Assembly (NCBI GenBank): GCA_009839745.1
Contig: VXPE01000047.1
Coordinates: forward strand, 1 to 32,488
Direction: 5' to 3'
Source of the DNA: Candidatus Poribacteria bacterium
GTDB taxonomy: Bacteria > Poribacteria > WGA-4E > WGA-3G
Length of the DNA stretch: 32,488 nt
Shown here: positions 27,931 to 32,488 of the stretch, in pieces
How the letters are laid out: each line of letters begins with the position of its first letter
Numbering within the stretch: position 1 is the stretch's first letter
Position numbers and translations under genes: made by a program
Notes under the pieces: generated by a model
What the model saw: the letters and a program-made list of their open reading frames with translations, nothing else
Databases searched by the model: none
Told to the model about the DNA's origin: nothing

Positions 27931-29877
27931 TTGTCCAAGATACTATTTCGCATTTCGTTATCTATAGGGATGTTTCTGCTGACTTTTATCGGTATGAGTG
28001 ACACACTTGAAAGCGTTCGTTTCAGCAACGCCGTTTGGGACGTTGAAATCTTTCCACAGTCGCTTGCCGTGAATGTCTATCCTGTGGGGACGGACATAAC
28101 AGTTCGGGTTTCATCGGGTCAGATAGGATTGGGTCCCGTGACGGATTTTTCTCATGAAGGTGAAGGTATCAGTTGGAGACTGCCGGAACGTGCCCTTACC
28201 GTTTACGTTGCATCGCTAAAGGATTCGCTAACGATTGAATTCATTCAAGACGATCCCGCAAACGACACGCGAAATTTCACGTGGCCCGTTATTGAAAATA
28301 CCGAATCCATCCACGGCTATATTTTTCCCTTTTTTGAGGGGAGTTACGTCCCGAAAGATGACCGCCCCTGGCGAGACTTCTTGTGCGATCGGGGACCGAT
28401 AAACACAACAGCGGGTCTCTCTATGCCGTTTTGGGGCTTGGACCTCGGTGAGAGAACACTTACCTATATTCTGACAAATCCGTTCAACAATCAAATCCAT
28501 TTCAGTGAGACGGAAACGTCTGACTTAGGTATGCGGGTATCACACGCCTTCACGCCGAATTGGGAACGGAAAAGGTATGGGGTGCGTCTTTCACTCGGTG
28601 CGGGATCACCGGTCGAGCCGGCGAAGCAGTATCGGCAGTGGCTGATCGAGAACGGTGCGTTTGTTTCGTTTGCTGAAAAGATCGAACAGGTTCCAGCGGC
28701 GGAAAAGTTGCTCGGTGCGGCGCACATCTACCTCTGGGGAGACGGCCCTTCTGTGAAACTCTTGGAGCGGTTTGCTGAGAGTGGATTGGATAGACTCTGG
28801 CTCGGTGTGGATTCATGGCAGGACGGATTTCGACACCCGACTGCCGTCGCGAAGGCGAGAGCACTCGGCTATTTGATTGGACCCTACGATTCTTATCATA
28901 GTATCCATCATCCGAATGAAAAGGATACATGGGAGACTGCACAGTTTGACCTGCCGCTTTATGAGACGGGTGCGATTGTCAACGCAGATGGCACGAAGAA
29001 TCGGGGGTTTAAAAAGAAGGGGTATCACTTAAGTCCGCTCGTGGCACAACCTTATGTCGAAGATCGCGTCAATGGCATCGTCGCACAGATGCCAACGGAC
29101 TTCAATACGTGGTTTATCGACTGCGACGCTTACGGTGAACTCTTTGACGACTATTCGCCATCCCATCCCGCGACGCAGTTGGATGATATGAATGCACGAC
29201 TTGCCCGTATCGCATGGATTCGGGACACGCACAATATGGTTGTCGGTTCAGAAGGCGGTGCCGCCTATGCTGCGGCGACCCTCCATTTCGCCCACGGAAT
29301 GACGACCCCTGTCATCGGGTGGGGCGATCCAGATATGAAAGAAAAAACTTCGCCTCACTACATCGGCGGGTACTGGCCCCCCGAAGGTCCAGCGATCCAC
29401 ATAAAACAGGTGCCTCTGAAACCGAACTATCTGCGTCTTTATTATGATCCACGTTTCCGGTTACCGCTCTATCAAATCGTGTTCCACGATTCAGTGGTGA
29501 CAACAAATCATTGGCACTCTGGAAGCCTCAAATTTGAGAATGCAATCGAGACGTTAGCACTGTTAGAGGTGCTCTACAACGTCCCGCCGTTATATCACCT
29601 GAATATGGCGGAGTTTACAAAACATAAAGCCTGGATACAGCGGCACTATGCGTTCTTTTCACCGCTACATCGGCAGATCGGCGGACAGACGATGACCGAG
29701 TTTGAGTGGTTGAGCGATAACAAGCAGGTCCAACGCACGGAGTTTGGGGATACTGTTGAGCTGTTCGCGAACTTCGGGACGAACCCGTTTGAATATGAAG
29801 GTATAGTAATTCCGGGCAAAAGTGTGCTTGCGCGGTGGATCGGAACTGGTGAGATTGAGGTGTTTGCCGTGGAATAA
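27931..29877 (+). CDS. Glycoside hydrolase, GH129/GH101-like TIM-barrel protein
   Basis: A 648-residue exported protein (hydrophobic signal, residues 1-22). An N-terminal beta-sandwich (to about 255) precedes a barrel that opens LLGAAHIYLWGDGPSVKLLERF. Likely catalytic residues are Asp397 in TWFIDCDAYGE as nucleophile and Glu441 in VVGSEGGAAYA as acid/base; sequence and spacing recall alpha-N-acetylgalactosaminidases of GH129 and GH101. A C-terminal beta domain ends the chain. Start is TTG 27931, nine bases after AAGGA; the first internal ATG is inside the signal. It follows the isomerase in one operon. The family call is my pattern recognition and could be a neighbouring uncharacterised clade. 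Confidence 0.65.
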   Translation: MSKILFRISLSIGMFLLTFIGMSDTLESVRFSNAVWDVEIFPQSLAVNVYPVGTDITVRVSSGQIGLGPVTDFSHEGEGISWRLPERALTVYVASLKDSLTIEFIQDDPANDTRNFTWPVIENTESIHGYIFPFFEGSYVPKDDRPWRDFLCDRGPINTTAGLSMPFWGLDLGERTLTYILTNPFNNQIHFSETETSDLGMRVSHAFTPNWERKRYGVRLSLGAGSPVEPAKQYRQWLIENGAFVSFAEKIEQVPAAEKLLGAAHIYLWGDGPSVKLLERFAESGLDRLWLGVDSWQDGFRHPTAVAKARALGYLIGPYDSYHSIHHPNEKDTWETAQFDLPLYETGAIVNADGTKNRGFKKKGYHLSPLVAQPYVEDRVNGIVAQMPTDFNTWFIDCDAYGELFDDYSPSHPATQLDDMNARLARIAWIRDTHNMVVGSEGGAAYAAATLHFAHGMTTPVIGWGDPDMKEKTSPHYIGGYWPPEGPAIHIKQVPLKPNYLRLYYDPRFRLPLYQIVFHDSVVTTNHWHSGSLKFENAIETLALLEVLYNVPPLYHLNMAEFTKHKAWIQRHYAFFSPLHRQIGGQTMTEFEWLSDNKQVQRTEFGDTVELFANFGTNPFEYEGIVIPGKSVLARWIGTGEIEVFAVE

Positions 29878-29895
29878 TATTAGGATAATCCATTG

Positions 29896-29924
29896 TTGAC
29901 AGTGAGCGTAAAATATGATACACT
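29896..29924 (+). promoter_or_regulatory. Promoter upstream of the HEPN-domain gene
   Basis: TTGACA (29896-29901), a 17-bp spacer and TACACT (29919-29924). Initiation near 29931 gives a leader of roughly 250 nt before the gene. That A/T-rich leader (29931-30183) holds no ORF with coding character. Confidence 0.55.
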
Positions 29925-29928
29925 CTTG

Positions 29929-29975
29929 GAAATTTAACGCGTTGTGCTAATTGACCATGTGTTTTGTTAAATTTC
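29929..29975. repeat. 10-bp inverted repeat at the predicted transcription start
   Basis: GAAATTTAAC (29929-29938) pairs perfectly with GTTAAATTTC (29966-29975) over a 27-nt loop, starting right at the expected initiation point of the promoter at 29896. It could be a repressor operator pair or a 5'-end stabilising hairpin. Confidence 0.5.
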
Positions 29976-30183
29976 ACAGTTGTTGGGTTTTCGTTGTAAA
30001 TTGAACCTTGATTCCATTGCCTCTTTGTTTTCATATAGAGACTTTGGTTTAAAAATGGGGCAGTATGAACCGAAGCTGTCAAATTACAAGTGGCAAAAGA
30101 TTAATACTGTGAAATCTAAATCTACAGAGAGTTAATTAGCACAAGCCGTAAATTTATTTACATGGAGGTTTACAAACGTTAAT

Positions 30184-32061
30184 ATGAAGGACTATCCTAA
30201 TGAGGAGGCACTCCGTAAAGCACACAGAATATACCTTGATGCGATGCGTGAATTCATTCATAAATGTTTAGAGAGTGTTCCGGGCACAACACCAAAAGAG
30301 TTAATCATGATGGCCTTGGATTGTGAACCGCGCAATGACTTTGAAGTTGAAATAGAGATTAATAATATTCCACATCTTATCAGAGAATACTGGGATGATT
30401 GTTTTCGCCAAAAGTTTGACCGTCACTATGATGTTCGCAGTGCAACAGGGCGAATAAAAGATGGTCGAAATTTTTGGGCACATCCAGGGATAGGGGATGT
30501 AGACCCCGAATCTACTCGAATGCATCTTTCTCTCGTCGCCGAGGCACTTGGTGAAATTAGTAAGGCAAAAGCAAAGACTGCAGTTGAAGAAATCCGAAAT
30601 CGGCTTTTTTCTGATGAACCTGAAGGACACCCAGCAGAAGCAGAGAATACTGATCTCAAGGAACGCCTCGCGGAAATGTCAGATCGACTGGCAGTGGTGG
30701 AAACAGAAAAGGCTGAATATAAGGAGTCCCACAAGGCTGAGTGGCAACGGCTAGAAGTAGAGAAAGCAGAGTATGCAGAACTCTTAGACACAGTGGAAAA
30801 AGAGAAAATTGAGATAGAAAAACAACTGGAGAGCGCGCAAACTCGGTTGAACGAACTGAAAGCGGAGAACACTGAATTGAAAGAACGTCTCTCGGAAACA
30901 GAGAATCGTCTAAAAGTTATTGAATTGGAGGGTGACGAACACGTCAAAACCTTGACGGATAAGACGGAGTTAGAGGAGCAATATGAAACTACTCCAATTA
31001 AGGAGTGGCGAAGGAAAATTTGGAAACAATTGTGCGACTATGCAGCTCAAAAGGACACTTCAGTTAGATTTAATAAACCGGGTTCGGAAAATTACTTAAA
31101 CGTTAGCAGAAGTTTGATAGATCTTACTGGCTTTTACATGAAGGTGTGGTTGGGCACGGACAATAGGGAAATTACCATCCGGCTTTATATGTCAAAACAA
31201 AATTTTTACATCCTCGAGAAACAGCGGACAGAAATTGAGCAGGAGTTTTGTGAATCTCTTGAATGGGAAGAATTACCTCAGCGTACGGATAGCCGGATAT
31301 CCTTACGTAAGGATATCATTGATCCGACAGATGAATCAGACTGGCAAAACCAGCACGAATGGGTTATCTCAAAACTTGAAAAATTCCACAAAAAGTTCAA
31401 TGAAGTCTTTCTACCGAGAATCCAAGAACTCAATACCTCCGATTCGCTACTCGAAGACGAGGAGTACCTGCCGTTAAATCCTGCTACACCTAATTCTGTC
31501 ACTTTTCAGGGGACCACCTTTGTAAAGCATTTAGACGAGTACCGTGTTGCGGGAGATGATATCACCCAAAATTTCTGGCACTATTGGCAATCACAAGGAC
31601 GCGAAGGTAAACAGGAAATGCGGAATGCCGGATGGAGTGTTGAGAAGATAGACGGAGAGTGGAAAGTGACGGTTTCTCCAGAAGATTTTCAGGCATGGAT
31701 AGAGAATGAAGTAACGGAGTTGAATAGCCTACTCAATTCATCACAAAACGAAGAATCTTCAACGCAACCTCCGCGTCTCTTCTATGGAAAAACGGTTCTA
31801 CCGACAGGTAAAGAAATGGAGCAACCTGCGCTTGAATTTCTTAGCGATGGAAGAGAATATCCCCGAATCGAGATCATAAATGTGCTTACCGAGCATTTTT
31901 CCCTTACCAAAAATCAGAGGGAGCAGTTAAGTCGAAGCGGAAGGGTGGAGCTTTACCTGAGAAACAAAGACTTGATAGAACGAACCAGAACAGGCTACTA
32001 CCGAATCACTGATCTCGGGCTTCAGGTCTTGAAGCAAAACTTGGATGATGTTCCATTTTAG
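30184..32061 (+). CDS. Multidomain HEPN - coiled coil - DUF4268-like - winged-helix (Mrr_N-like) protein
   Basis: A 625-residue cytoplasmic protein without close precedent that I can name. Residues 1-135 look like a Swt1-type HEPN domain, with the ribonuclease motif RNFWAH (Arg95, His100) and a flanking GRIKDG. Residues 152-268 are a continuous charged coiled coil. Residues 272-412 resemble DUF4268 (WLGTDNREITIRLYM, EQEFCESLEWEELP). Residues 440-515 form a small unassigned domain (FWHYWQSQGREGKQ). Residues 545-620 resemble the Mrr_N winged helix (PALEFLSDGREYPRIEII ... GYYRITDLGLQVL, abridged). The pieces are typical of anti-phage and restriction proteins; RNA cleavage on infection is inference. 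The ATG has GGAGG 15 bases upstream, unusually far. The gene is more A/T-rich than its neighbours. Confidence 0.75.
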   Translation: MKDYPNEEALRKAHRIYLDAMREFIHKCLESVPGTTPKELIMMALDCEPRNDFEVEIEINNIPHLIREYWDDCFRQKFDRHYDVRSATGRIKDGRNFWAHPGIGDVDPESTRMHLSLVAEALGEISKAKAKTAVEEIRNRLFSDEPEGHPAEAENTDLKERLAEMSDRLAVVETEKAEYKESHKAEWQRLEVEKAEYAELLDTVEKEKIEIEKQLESAQTRLNELKAENTELKERLSETENRLKVIELEGDEHVKTLTDKTELEEQYETTPIKEWRRKIWKQLCDYAAQKDTSVRFNKPGSENYLNVSRSLIDLTGFYMKVWLGTDNREITIRLYMSKQNFYILEKQRTEIEQEFCESLEWEELPQRTDSRISLRKDIIDPTDESDWQNQHEWVISKLEKFHKKFNEVFLPRIQELNTSDSLLEDEEYLPLNPATPNSVTFQGTTFVKHLDEYRVAGDDITQNFWHYWQSQGREGKQEMRNAGWSVEKIDGEWKVTVSPEDFQAWIENEVTELNSLLNSSQNEESSTQPPRLFYGKTVLPTGKEMEQPALEFLSDGREYPRIEIINVLTEHFSLTKNQREQLSRSGRVELYLRNKDLIERTRTGYYRITDLGLQVLKQNLDDVPF

Positions 32062-32096: not shown

Positions 32097-32446
32097 TATA
32101 ACGTGAGTTTCTTGATAATAAAAATGTAAGTTTAGGAGTAGGTTGAGTTGACTCGACCGCATTTCTCGTATCGTTGCTATAAACCGTGAAGAGATTAAGA
32201 TCTATACTGATGTTATGCACGATTTTGCCAAAAATGATAGAAAGGTAGAAACTATGTTCATGCAGAAATTCAAAGCCACCTTTCAGTTTCTCGGAATTCT
32301 GTCAATGAGGGTTCTACTGGGCTGTGTCGCGGGAGTCTTATGGCTTGCTTTCGCCGCCTTTATCTCTCGCAACATAGTGGTCTGGATAGTAGAAAAGTTC
32401 GCTTATCGAGATCTGGATGGTAGTTATCATAGTATAACGTGAGTTT
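32097..32446. repeat. 14-bp direct repeats flanking a small membrane-protein gene
   Basis: TATAACGTGAGTTT occurs at 32097-32110 and again at 32433-32446, both followed within a few bases by TGATAA. The second copy overlaps the stop of the small ORF. The two may be ends of related insertion elements or the scar of a duplication; the window ends 42 bases later, so the right side cannot be read. A hairpin GGTTGAG-TTGA-CTCGACC lies at 32141-32158. Confidence 0.6.
32254..32442 (+). CDS. Small membrane protein of unknown function (62 aa)
   Basis: A 62-residue ORF starting MFMQKFKATFQFLGILS, with one long or two short transmembrane helices between residues 10 and 45 (LLGCVAGVLWLAFAAFISRN) and a polar C-terminus. 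I do not recognise it. ATG 32254 lies nine bases after AAAGG; an ATG at 32215 in the same frame lacks a ribosome-binding site. A TATACT at 32203-32208 could be its -10. It follows the HEPN-domain gene on the same strand by 192 bases, so a functional link is possible but unproven. Confidence 0.5.
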   Translation: MFMQKFKATFQFLGILSMRVLLGCVAGVLWLAFAAFISRNIVVWIVEKFAYRDLDGSYHSIT

Positions 32447-32488
32447 GATAAAAGTTTAGTCTTTAGAAAAGCACGGGTAAATCGTTGA

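Follow-up and report, generated by a model that had tools for sequence, protein, structure and literature searches.

HEPN RNases are common defence effectors, and HEPN domains commonly dimerise. The Swt1-like HEPN family (PF18731) was described by Anantharaman et al. (2013; PMC3710099), and in the portions of that survey covered here its members carry an R-X4-H motif and are joined to DUF499, PIN, WW, wHTH/Vsr, aegerolysin or TM partners. The HEPN-DUF499 arrangement, first noted in PMC3710099, is the core of Type-1 BR/Hma, where a HEPN-DUF499 ATPase is accompanied by a DUF1156 methylase and a helicase; phage defence by this system has been confirmed experimentally, and its HEPN domain has been proposed to act as a suicide effector (PMC12839542). 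CoCoNuT systems, predicted to target RNA, are assembled from coiled coils, wHTH domains and HEPN RNases together with a McrB GTPase, McrC and a helicase (PMC11090510). Outside the HEPN context, DUF4268 is found in the PADLOC candidate PDC-S11 and occurs also with GmrSD domains (PMC4619093), and the Mrr_N winged helix is a part of Mrr/Type IV restriction enzymes and GmrSD.

We analysed a window of 32,488 bp, the whole of contig C47 in the 5.04-Mb, 141-contig genome of a Candidatus Poribacteria bacterium (G000), and found a 625-aa protein that joins a HEPN head, DUF4268 and Mrr_N in one chain. The first-pass annotation had read a HEPN head, a coiled coil, DUF4268 and Mrr_N in this chain, an architecture which Pfam and an AlphaFold2 model (27 rows, pLDDT 84.7) both confirmed, the model opening with a helical head, which passes into a helix at aa 151-250 and then into an alpha/beta domain, a domain that we call X and a winged helix. 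Position 29896, where the span given in the first pass begins, is the -35 box of the promoter and not the gene start; the features as we now map them are collected in the table. The reading frame shows purifying constraint (dN/dS 0.09-0.57, depending on the segment) and is therefore no chance frame, and the gene is indeed A/T-rich, with a GC content of 43.1% compared with 48.4 +/- 2.1% in segments of equal size.

Features of the HEPN locus (window coordinates)
Feature	Position	Strand	Basis
Core GH129 glycosidase gene, left flank	27931-29877	+	PF11308 E 5.9e-121; in 36/38 genus genomes
Promoter TTGACA-17-TACACT (-35 29896-29901, -10 29919-29924)	29896-29924	+	Sequence; kept in relatives
Target-site duplication AAATTTA, left copy	29930-29936		Sequence
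213-bp MITE between promoter and start codon ("long leader")	29937-30149		Genomic copies, terminal inverted arms, absence in relatives
Target-site duplication AAATTTA, right copy	30150-30156		Sequence
GGAGGT, possible ribosome-binding site, 14 nt from ATG (long spacing)	30164-30169	+	Sequence
HEPN-coiled coil-DUF4268-X-Mrr_N gene, 625 aa	30184-32061	+	ORF, Pfam, AlphaFold2
HEPN (Swt1-like) head, aa 1-145	30184-30618	+	Pfam; all-helical model
R95-N-F-W-A-H100, HEPN active-site motif	30466-30483	+	R, H, W70, F74 in 39/39
Single long helix / coiled coil, aa 151-250	30634-30933	+	AlphaFold2
DUF4268 domain, aa 270-420; cassette exchanged recently, fold like that of YbjN/type III chaperones	30991-31443	+	Pfam, fold matches, third-position identity
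Unnamed domain X, aa 435-520	31486-31743	+	No Pfam match; X + Mrr_N common to 9 genes
Mrr_N winged helix, aa 544-618	31813-32037	+	Pfam, fold matches
Conserved right flank, kept in empty sites	32151-32436		Alignments to G061, G074, G083, G084
Probable end of multicopy insertion sequence, contig break there	32433-32488		Motif equidistant from several contig ends

Compared with the described systems, the protein shares with Type-1 BR/Hma a homologous N-terminal Swt1-like HEPN head, but neither its chain nor the genes alongside contain the ATPase, methylase or helicase; DUF499 gave no Pfam match in the chain, and the neighbours are unrelated to that system. It belongs by sequence to the fold family of the Swt1-like proteins, and neither DUF4268 nor Mrr_N was found as a partner among the architectures quoted in the covered portions of PMC3710099. 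Its DUF4268 half matches PDC-S11 (E 4e-23), although only over positions 160-311 of the 318 in that profile, the N-terminal half being replaced by the HEPN head and the coil. Unlike CoCoNuT, it lacks McrB GTPase, McrC and helicase parts (no McrB/AAA match in the chain, and other domains in the scanned flanking genes), its HEPN domain is N-terminal and its tail is variable. The Mrr_N winged helix is held in common with Mrr/Type IV enzymes and GmrSD, but no PD-(D/E)XK, DUF262 or DUF1524 domain was found in the protein. As the first-pass annotation had surmised, a search of the open-access literature returned no publication on such an architecture. No relative was found among IMG/VR viral contigs or in a phage collection, and plasmids yielded DUF4268 or Mrr_N parts only. 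The relatives that could be named all come from Candidatus Poribacteria, sponge symbionts, and a scan of genome contigs with two peptide patterns gave none outside this group.

HEPN_Swt1 matches the head slightly below the Pfam gathering score (E 0.0011 with the full-length protein, 3.2e-5 with the head alone) and matches 20 of 25 heads of the family (best E 4.4e-9), one relative lying above the gathering score (29.6 versus 27.5 bits). The motif RNFWAH (aa 95-100) conforms to R-X4-H, within the R-X4-6-H pattern, and the arginine and histidine on which the first-pass annotation had based its HEPN ribonuclease proposal are invariant in all 39 aligned heads, as are W70 and F74, while the heads at this site and those of the nearest off-site relatives share 34-91% identity with one another (median 47). 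The model of the head is all-helical; the winged helix filled the fold-match lists of the whole chain, no known HEPN structure being among the matches listed, which carries no weight either way, and the PDB gave no match in a single-sequence search and no credible one by profile. This is good evidence, drawn from sequence conservation, that the HEPN domain has been retained for catalysis, and we infer that it acts as an RNase. The coiled coil predicted to span 115 residues is present as one long helix, although of about 100 residues and with a weak heptad signal, the best period being 3.52 and an equally strong signal arising in 205 of 2000 shuffles, which is short of significance.

Both tail domains proposed earlier lie above their Pfam gathering scores, DUF4268 (PF14088) at aa 276-407 (E 4.6e-18, 66 bits versus 27) and Mrr_N (PF14338) at aa 544-618 (E 1.5e-11, 44.7 bits versus 29.5), while domain X has no Pfam match. 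The DUF4268 model aligned to YbjN/AmyR and to CesT and other type III secretion chaperones, with Z 8.5-8.7 over 123-127 residues and rmsd 3.1-3.3 (Foldseek E 0.01, probability 1.00); the match is of middling strength and agrees between two models. The predicted fold suggests a protein-binding domain. A nuclease role for DUF4268 was rejected on this fold and on the lack of a PD-(D/E)XK profile match, the Mrr catalytic domain being absent from a Pfam scan of the chain at E up to 10. The tail is thus of restriction type as to the associations of its domains, but not as to the fold of DUF4268. The Mrr_N part aligned to the winged helices of the regulators RosR, PadR and MarR (Z about 10) and to that of the Retron-Eco1 effector (Z 9.7).

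The gene occupies a fixed chromosomal site between the GH129 gene upstream and rhodanese/PhyH genes, which are the next named genes in its relatives; the window itself ends 427 bp past the gene. With regard to the adjacent antitoxin gene of HEPN-MNT toxin-antitoxin pairs, the neighbours considered were these named genes, the small ORFs further downstream not being among them. Across the genus, the site is occupied in 16 genomes and empty in 15. In 14 of the former the HEPN gene was read 3' of GH129 (G000, G062, G056, G082, G073, G080, G058, G069, G072, G075, G068, G048, G050 and G066), in G077 it runs off the contig, and G076 was judged by its other flank, its HEPN contig carrying ORFs of 129, 278 and 544 aa, the sizes of those in the right flank. 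Sites were called empty where rhodanese or PhyH was reached without a HEPN gene (G074, G053, G060, G061, G083, G079, G067, G064, G059, G065, G081, G063, G084, G071 and G070), and they include that of the nearest relative, G074, whose GH129 is the closest (92%). The right flank is retained in empty sites, lying 181 bp 3' of the GH129 stop in G061 and 1031 bp in G074 (32151-32321 in both) and 900 bp in G083; in G084 the match starts at 32250 and lies 51 bp 3' of that stop. Its neighbours at the site are GH129, Uma2-like, isomerase-like, rhodanese and PhyH genes, and no integrase was found. From the occupied and empty sites, this is an accessory insertion of one gene into a housekeeping neighbourhood. 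The acquired defence island first suggested for this position was rejected: the gene stands alone at its site, with no defence genes among its neighbours.

Comparison with the one full-length homologue, in G049, revealed changes in divergence along the chain. Third codon positions agree at 38-52% from the head into the coil as far as about aa 234, then at 88-95% within DUF4268 (aa 275-434) and at 42-55% towards the C-terminal end. For G076 the agreement is mostly 30-50% over the head, rises to 85-100% within DUF4268 and drops to 22-40% beyond it. In G000, G049, G076 and G082, DUF4268 is 84-93% identical, compared with 45-54% for their heads, and the left boundary of the exchange lies near aa 215-275. 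For nine genes, pairwise identities of the head and of X+Mrr_N are uncorrelated (r -0.17), and AU tests rejected the pair G049+G062 on the head (p 7.9e-5) and the pairs G056+G068 (p 0.0011) and G062+G080 (p 0.0036) on the tail, a fourth test giving p 0.059; the clades were picked after the identities had been seen, which makes these p-values somewhat flattering. The heads are near saturation, with flanking genes about 80-95% identical. Related heads are followed by tails of at least eight types, some of them unnamed: DUF4268, DUF4268+X+Mrr_N, X+Mrr_N, DUF4268+DprA_WH, HTH_31, a module common to G060, G048 and G076, UDG, DUF499 and, in proteins of 700-860 aa, a region with a weak helicase-C match. 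Judged by these identity patterns and tree conflicts, the HEPN genes are mosaics whose C-terminal cassettes have been exchanged by recombination. Such swapping of cassettes behind HEPN heads, at a site that stays fixed, is the main new point of our analysis and one that can be tested; together with the conflict between head and tail trees, it supports a conflict-type mode of evolution.

Off-site relatives of the head were found in several settings. In the same genome, a head 37% identical to that of the 625-aa protein (E 5e-23) forms one protein with DUF499, and the next gene encodes a DUF1156 methylase (locus L046, 9761-16678 of G000:C50), which is likely a Type-1 BR/Hma system. The full-length homologue of G049 (L037, 3-7129 of G049:C168) lies two genes from a 1292-aa candidate defence protein, PDC-M54A (E 1.8e-184), and one G076 copy adjoins an HNH nuclease gene. 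A related head is fused to a uracil-DNA glycosylase domain in G009 (L070, 9068-10231 of G009:C3; UDG, E 7e-21). HEPN-coil proteins of 700-860 aa, some with the weak helicase-C match, are encoded at loci L047-L053 and L071-L074. The association of homologues with defence genes thus fails at the site itself but is seen in part elsewhere, defence-like neighbours being confined to off-site copies. Restriction and toxin-antitoxin genes are enriched in sponge symbionts (PMC5649159).

We favour the reading, with a probability of roughly 0.55, that the gene encodes a stand-alone HEPN RNase effector whose sensing tails are exchanged at a fixed site and which is probably directed against phage. Shuffled tails on a retained cutting head at one spot are what would be expected of an evolving anti-virus gene. 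Also in favour are the invariant R95 and H100, the family heads that match HEPN_Swt1, the related head joined to DUF499 in the same genome, the pattern of occupied and empty sites and the neighbours of the G049 and G076 copies; against it count the lack of defence genes around the gene, the second conserved location of same-head relatives, the failure to find the whole protein in phages or plasmids and the middling fold match of DUF4268. The protein would dimerise through its HEPN heads and long helix to form a composite R-X4-H active site, and the tail (DUF4268, X and the winged helix) would keep the RNase off until a trigger is met. DUF4268 is apparently built for binding a protein or peptide and the winged helix could bind nucleic acid; the trigger would most likely come from a phage or another invader, either as one of its components or as its nucleic acid. 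Once triggered, the RNase may cut cellular or invader RNA and stop the infection, possibly by cell arrest. As a more tentative extension, it is tempting to speculate that Poribacteria keep one receptor locus, a HEPN RNase with exchangeable tail cassettes renewed by recombination whose breakpoints lie in and after the coil, so that each species of sponge symbiont could equip a common killing head with invader sensors of its own. If the favoured reading is true, the exchange of cassettes between species at a fixed site amounts to a natural domain-swap series, in which many head and tail combinations already exist, with known neighbours and with empty sites as controls. The sensing and killing modules would become testable separately, and attention would turn to DUF4268 as a chaperone-like domain that probably binds protein.

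Alternatively, the protein could be a regulatory or stress RNase acting on the cell's own RNA, its winged helix tying it to DNA or transcripts while the head trims specific RNAs, with tail diversity reflecting relaxed or niche-specific regulation. The housekeeping neighbours at the site and the closeness of the winged helix to RosR, PadR and MarR are consistent with this, and a regular cellular role would also suit the same-head relatives of 700-860 aa, which in several genomes of the genus lie in another conserved gene setting (common, by ORF sizes, to L047-L050, those checked). Presence in about half of the genus, near-saturated heads and recent cassette exchange would be unusual for a housekeeping regulator, however, and we consider this role doubtful. 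The protein might instead belong to a system whose other genes lie elsewhere, for example as an added RNase whose HEPN domain pairs with that of the DUF499 protein of Type-1 BR/Hma or with the HEPN-helicase-like paralogue. Several HEPN heads of one family occur in one genome and dimerisation is common among such domains, but heads that are only 34-91% identical to one another are ill-suited to a fixed partner, which makes this arrangement unlikely. A toxin cassette that is selfish or addictive, has no sensing role and spreads by homologous recombination in its flanks would account for a single accessory gene with its own conserved promoter at a fixed site; we regard it as quite improbable, as among the named neighbours in occupied sites there is no obvious antitoxin-like partner and tails of several hundred residues are kept by purifying selection. 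A catalytically dead HEPN serving as scaffold or RNA binder, for which the inferred inactivity of the eukaryotic Swt1 HEPN in the covered portions of PMC3710099 offers a precedent, is hardly credible for heads that have kept R and H in 39 of 39 cases while the remainder diverged so far.

The gene does have its own promoter, the segment 29896-29936 being 83-85% identical 5' of the HEPN genes in G058 and G082 and partly so in G056 and G066, but the long leader noted in the first pass is an inserted element and the operator-like inverted repeat is a by-product of its insertion. In G056, G058 and G082, the match that ends at 29936 joins the match that starts at 30150 directly, about 35 bp 5' of the start codon, and the element is absent 5' of the relatives' HEPN genes. 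Six other copies in the same genome (on C42, C86, C21 and C41, with two on C129) are 90-100% identical, five of them being near-identical, and most carry 7-9 bp target duplications of their own; the 213-bp element is therefore a MITE, and probably a recently mobile one. We rejected the 10-bp inverted repeat as an operator: its first arm extends into the target duplication, and its partner arm belongs to the MITE, whose other copies carry different left flanks.

Repeat-flanked DNA had likewise been taken as a sign of an acquired island; the repeat exists downstream of the gene, but it looks like the end of an insertion sequence. The motif TATAACGTGAGTTT is present at 32097 (32097-32110) and again at 32433, and its 13-base core has 19 genomic copies, several of which are equally far from the end of their contig. 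Of the 19 genomic occurrences of ATAACGTGAGTTT, six, including that at 32433-32446, have a contig end about 42-56 nt away. Because this motif recurs near contig ends, the contig most likely breaks within an insertion sequence, of which the downstream repeat is probably the end.
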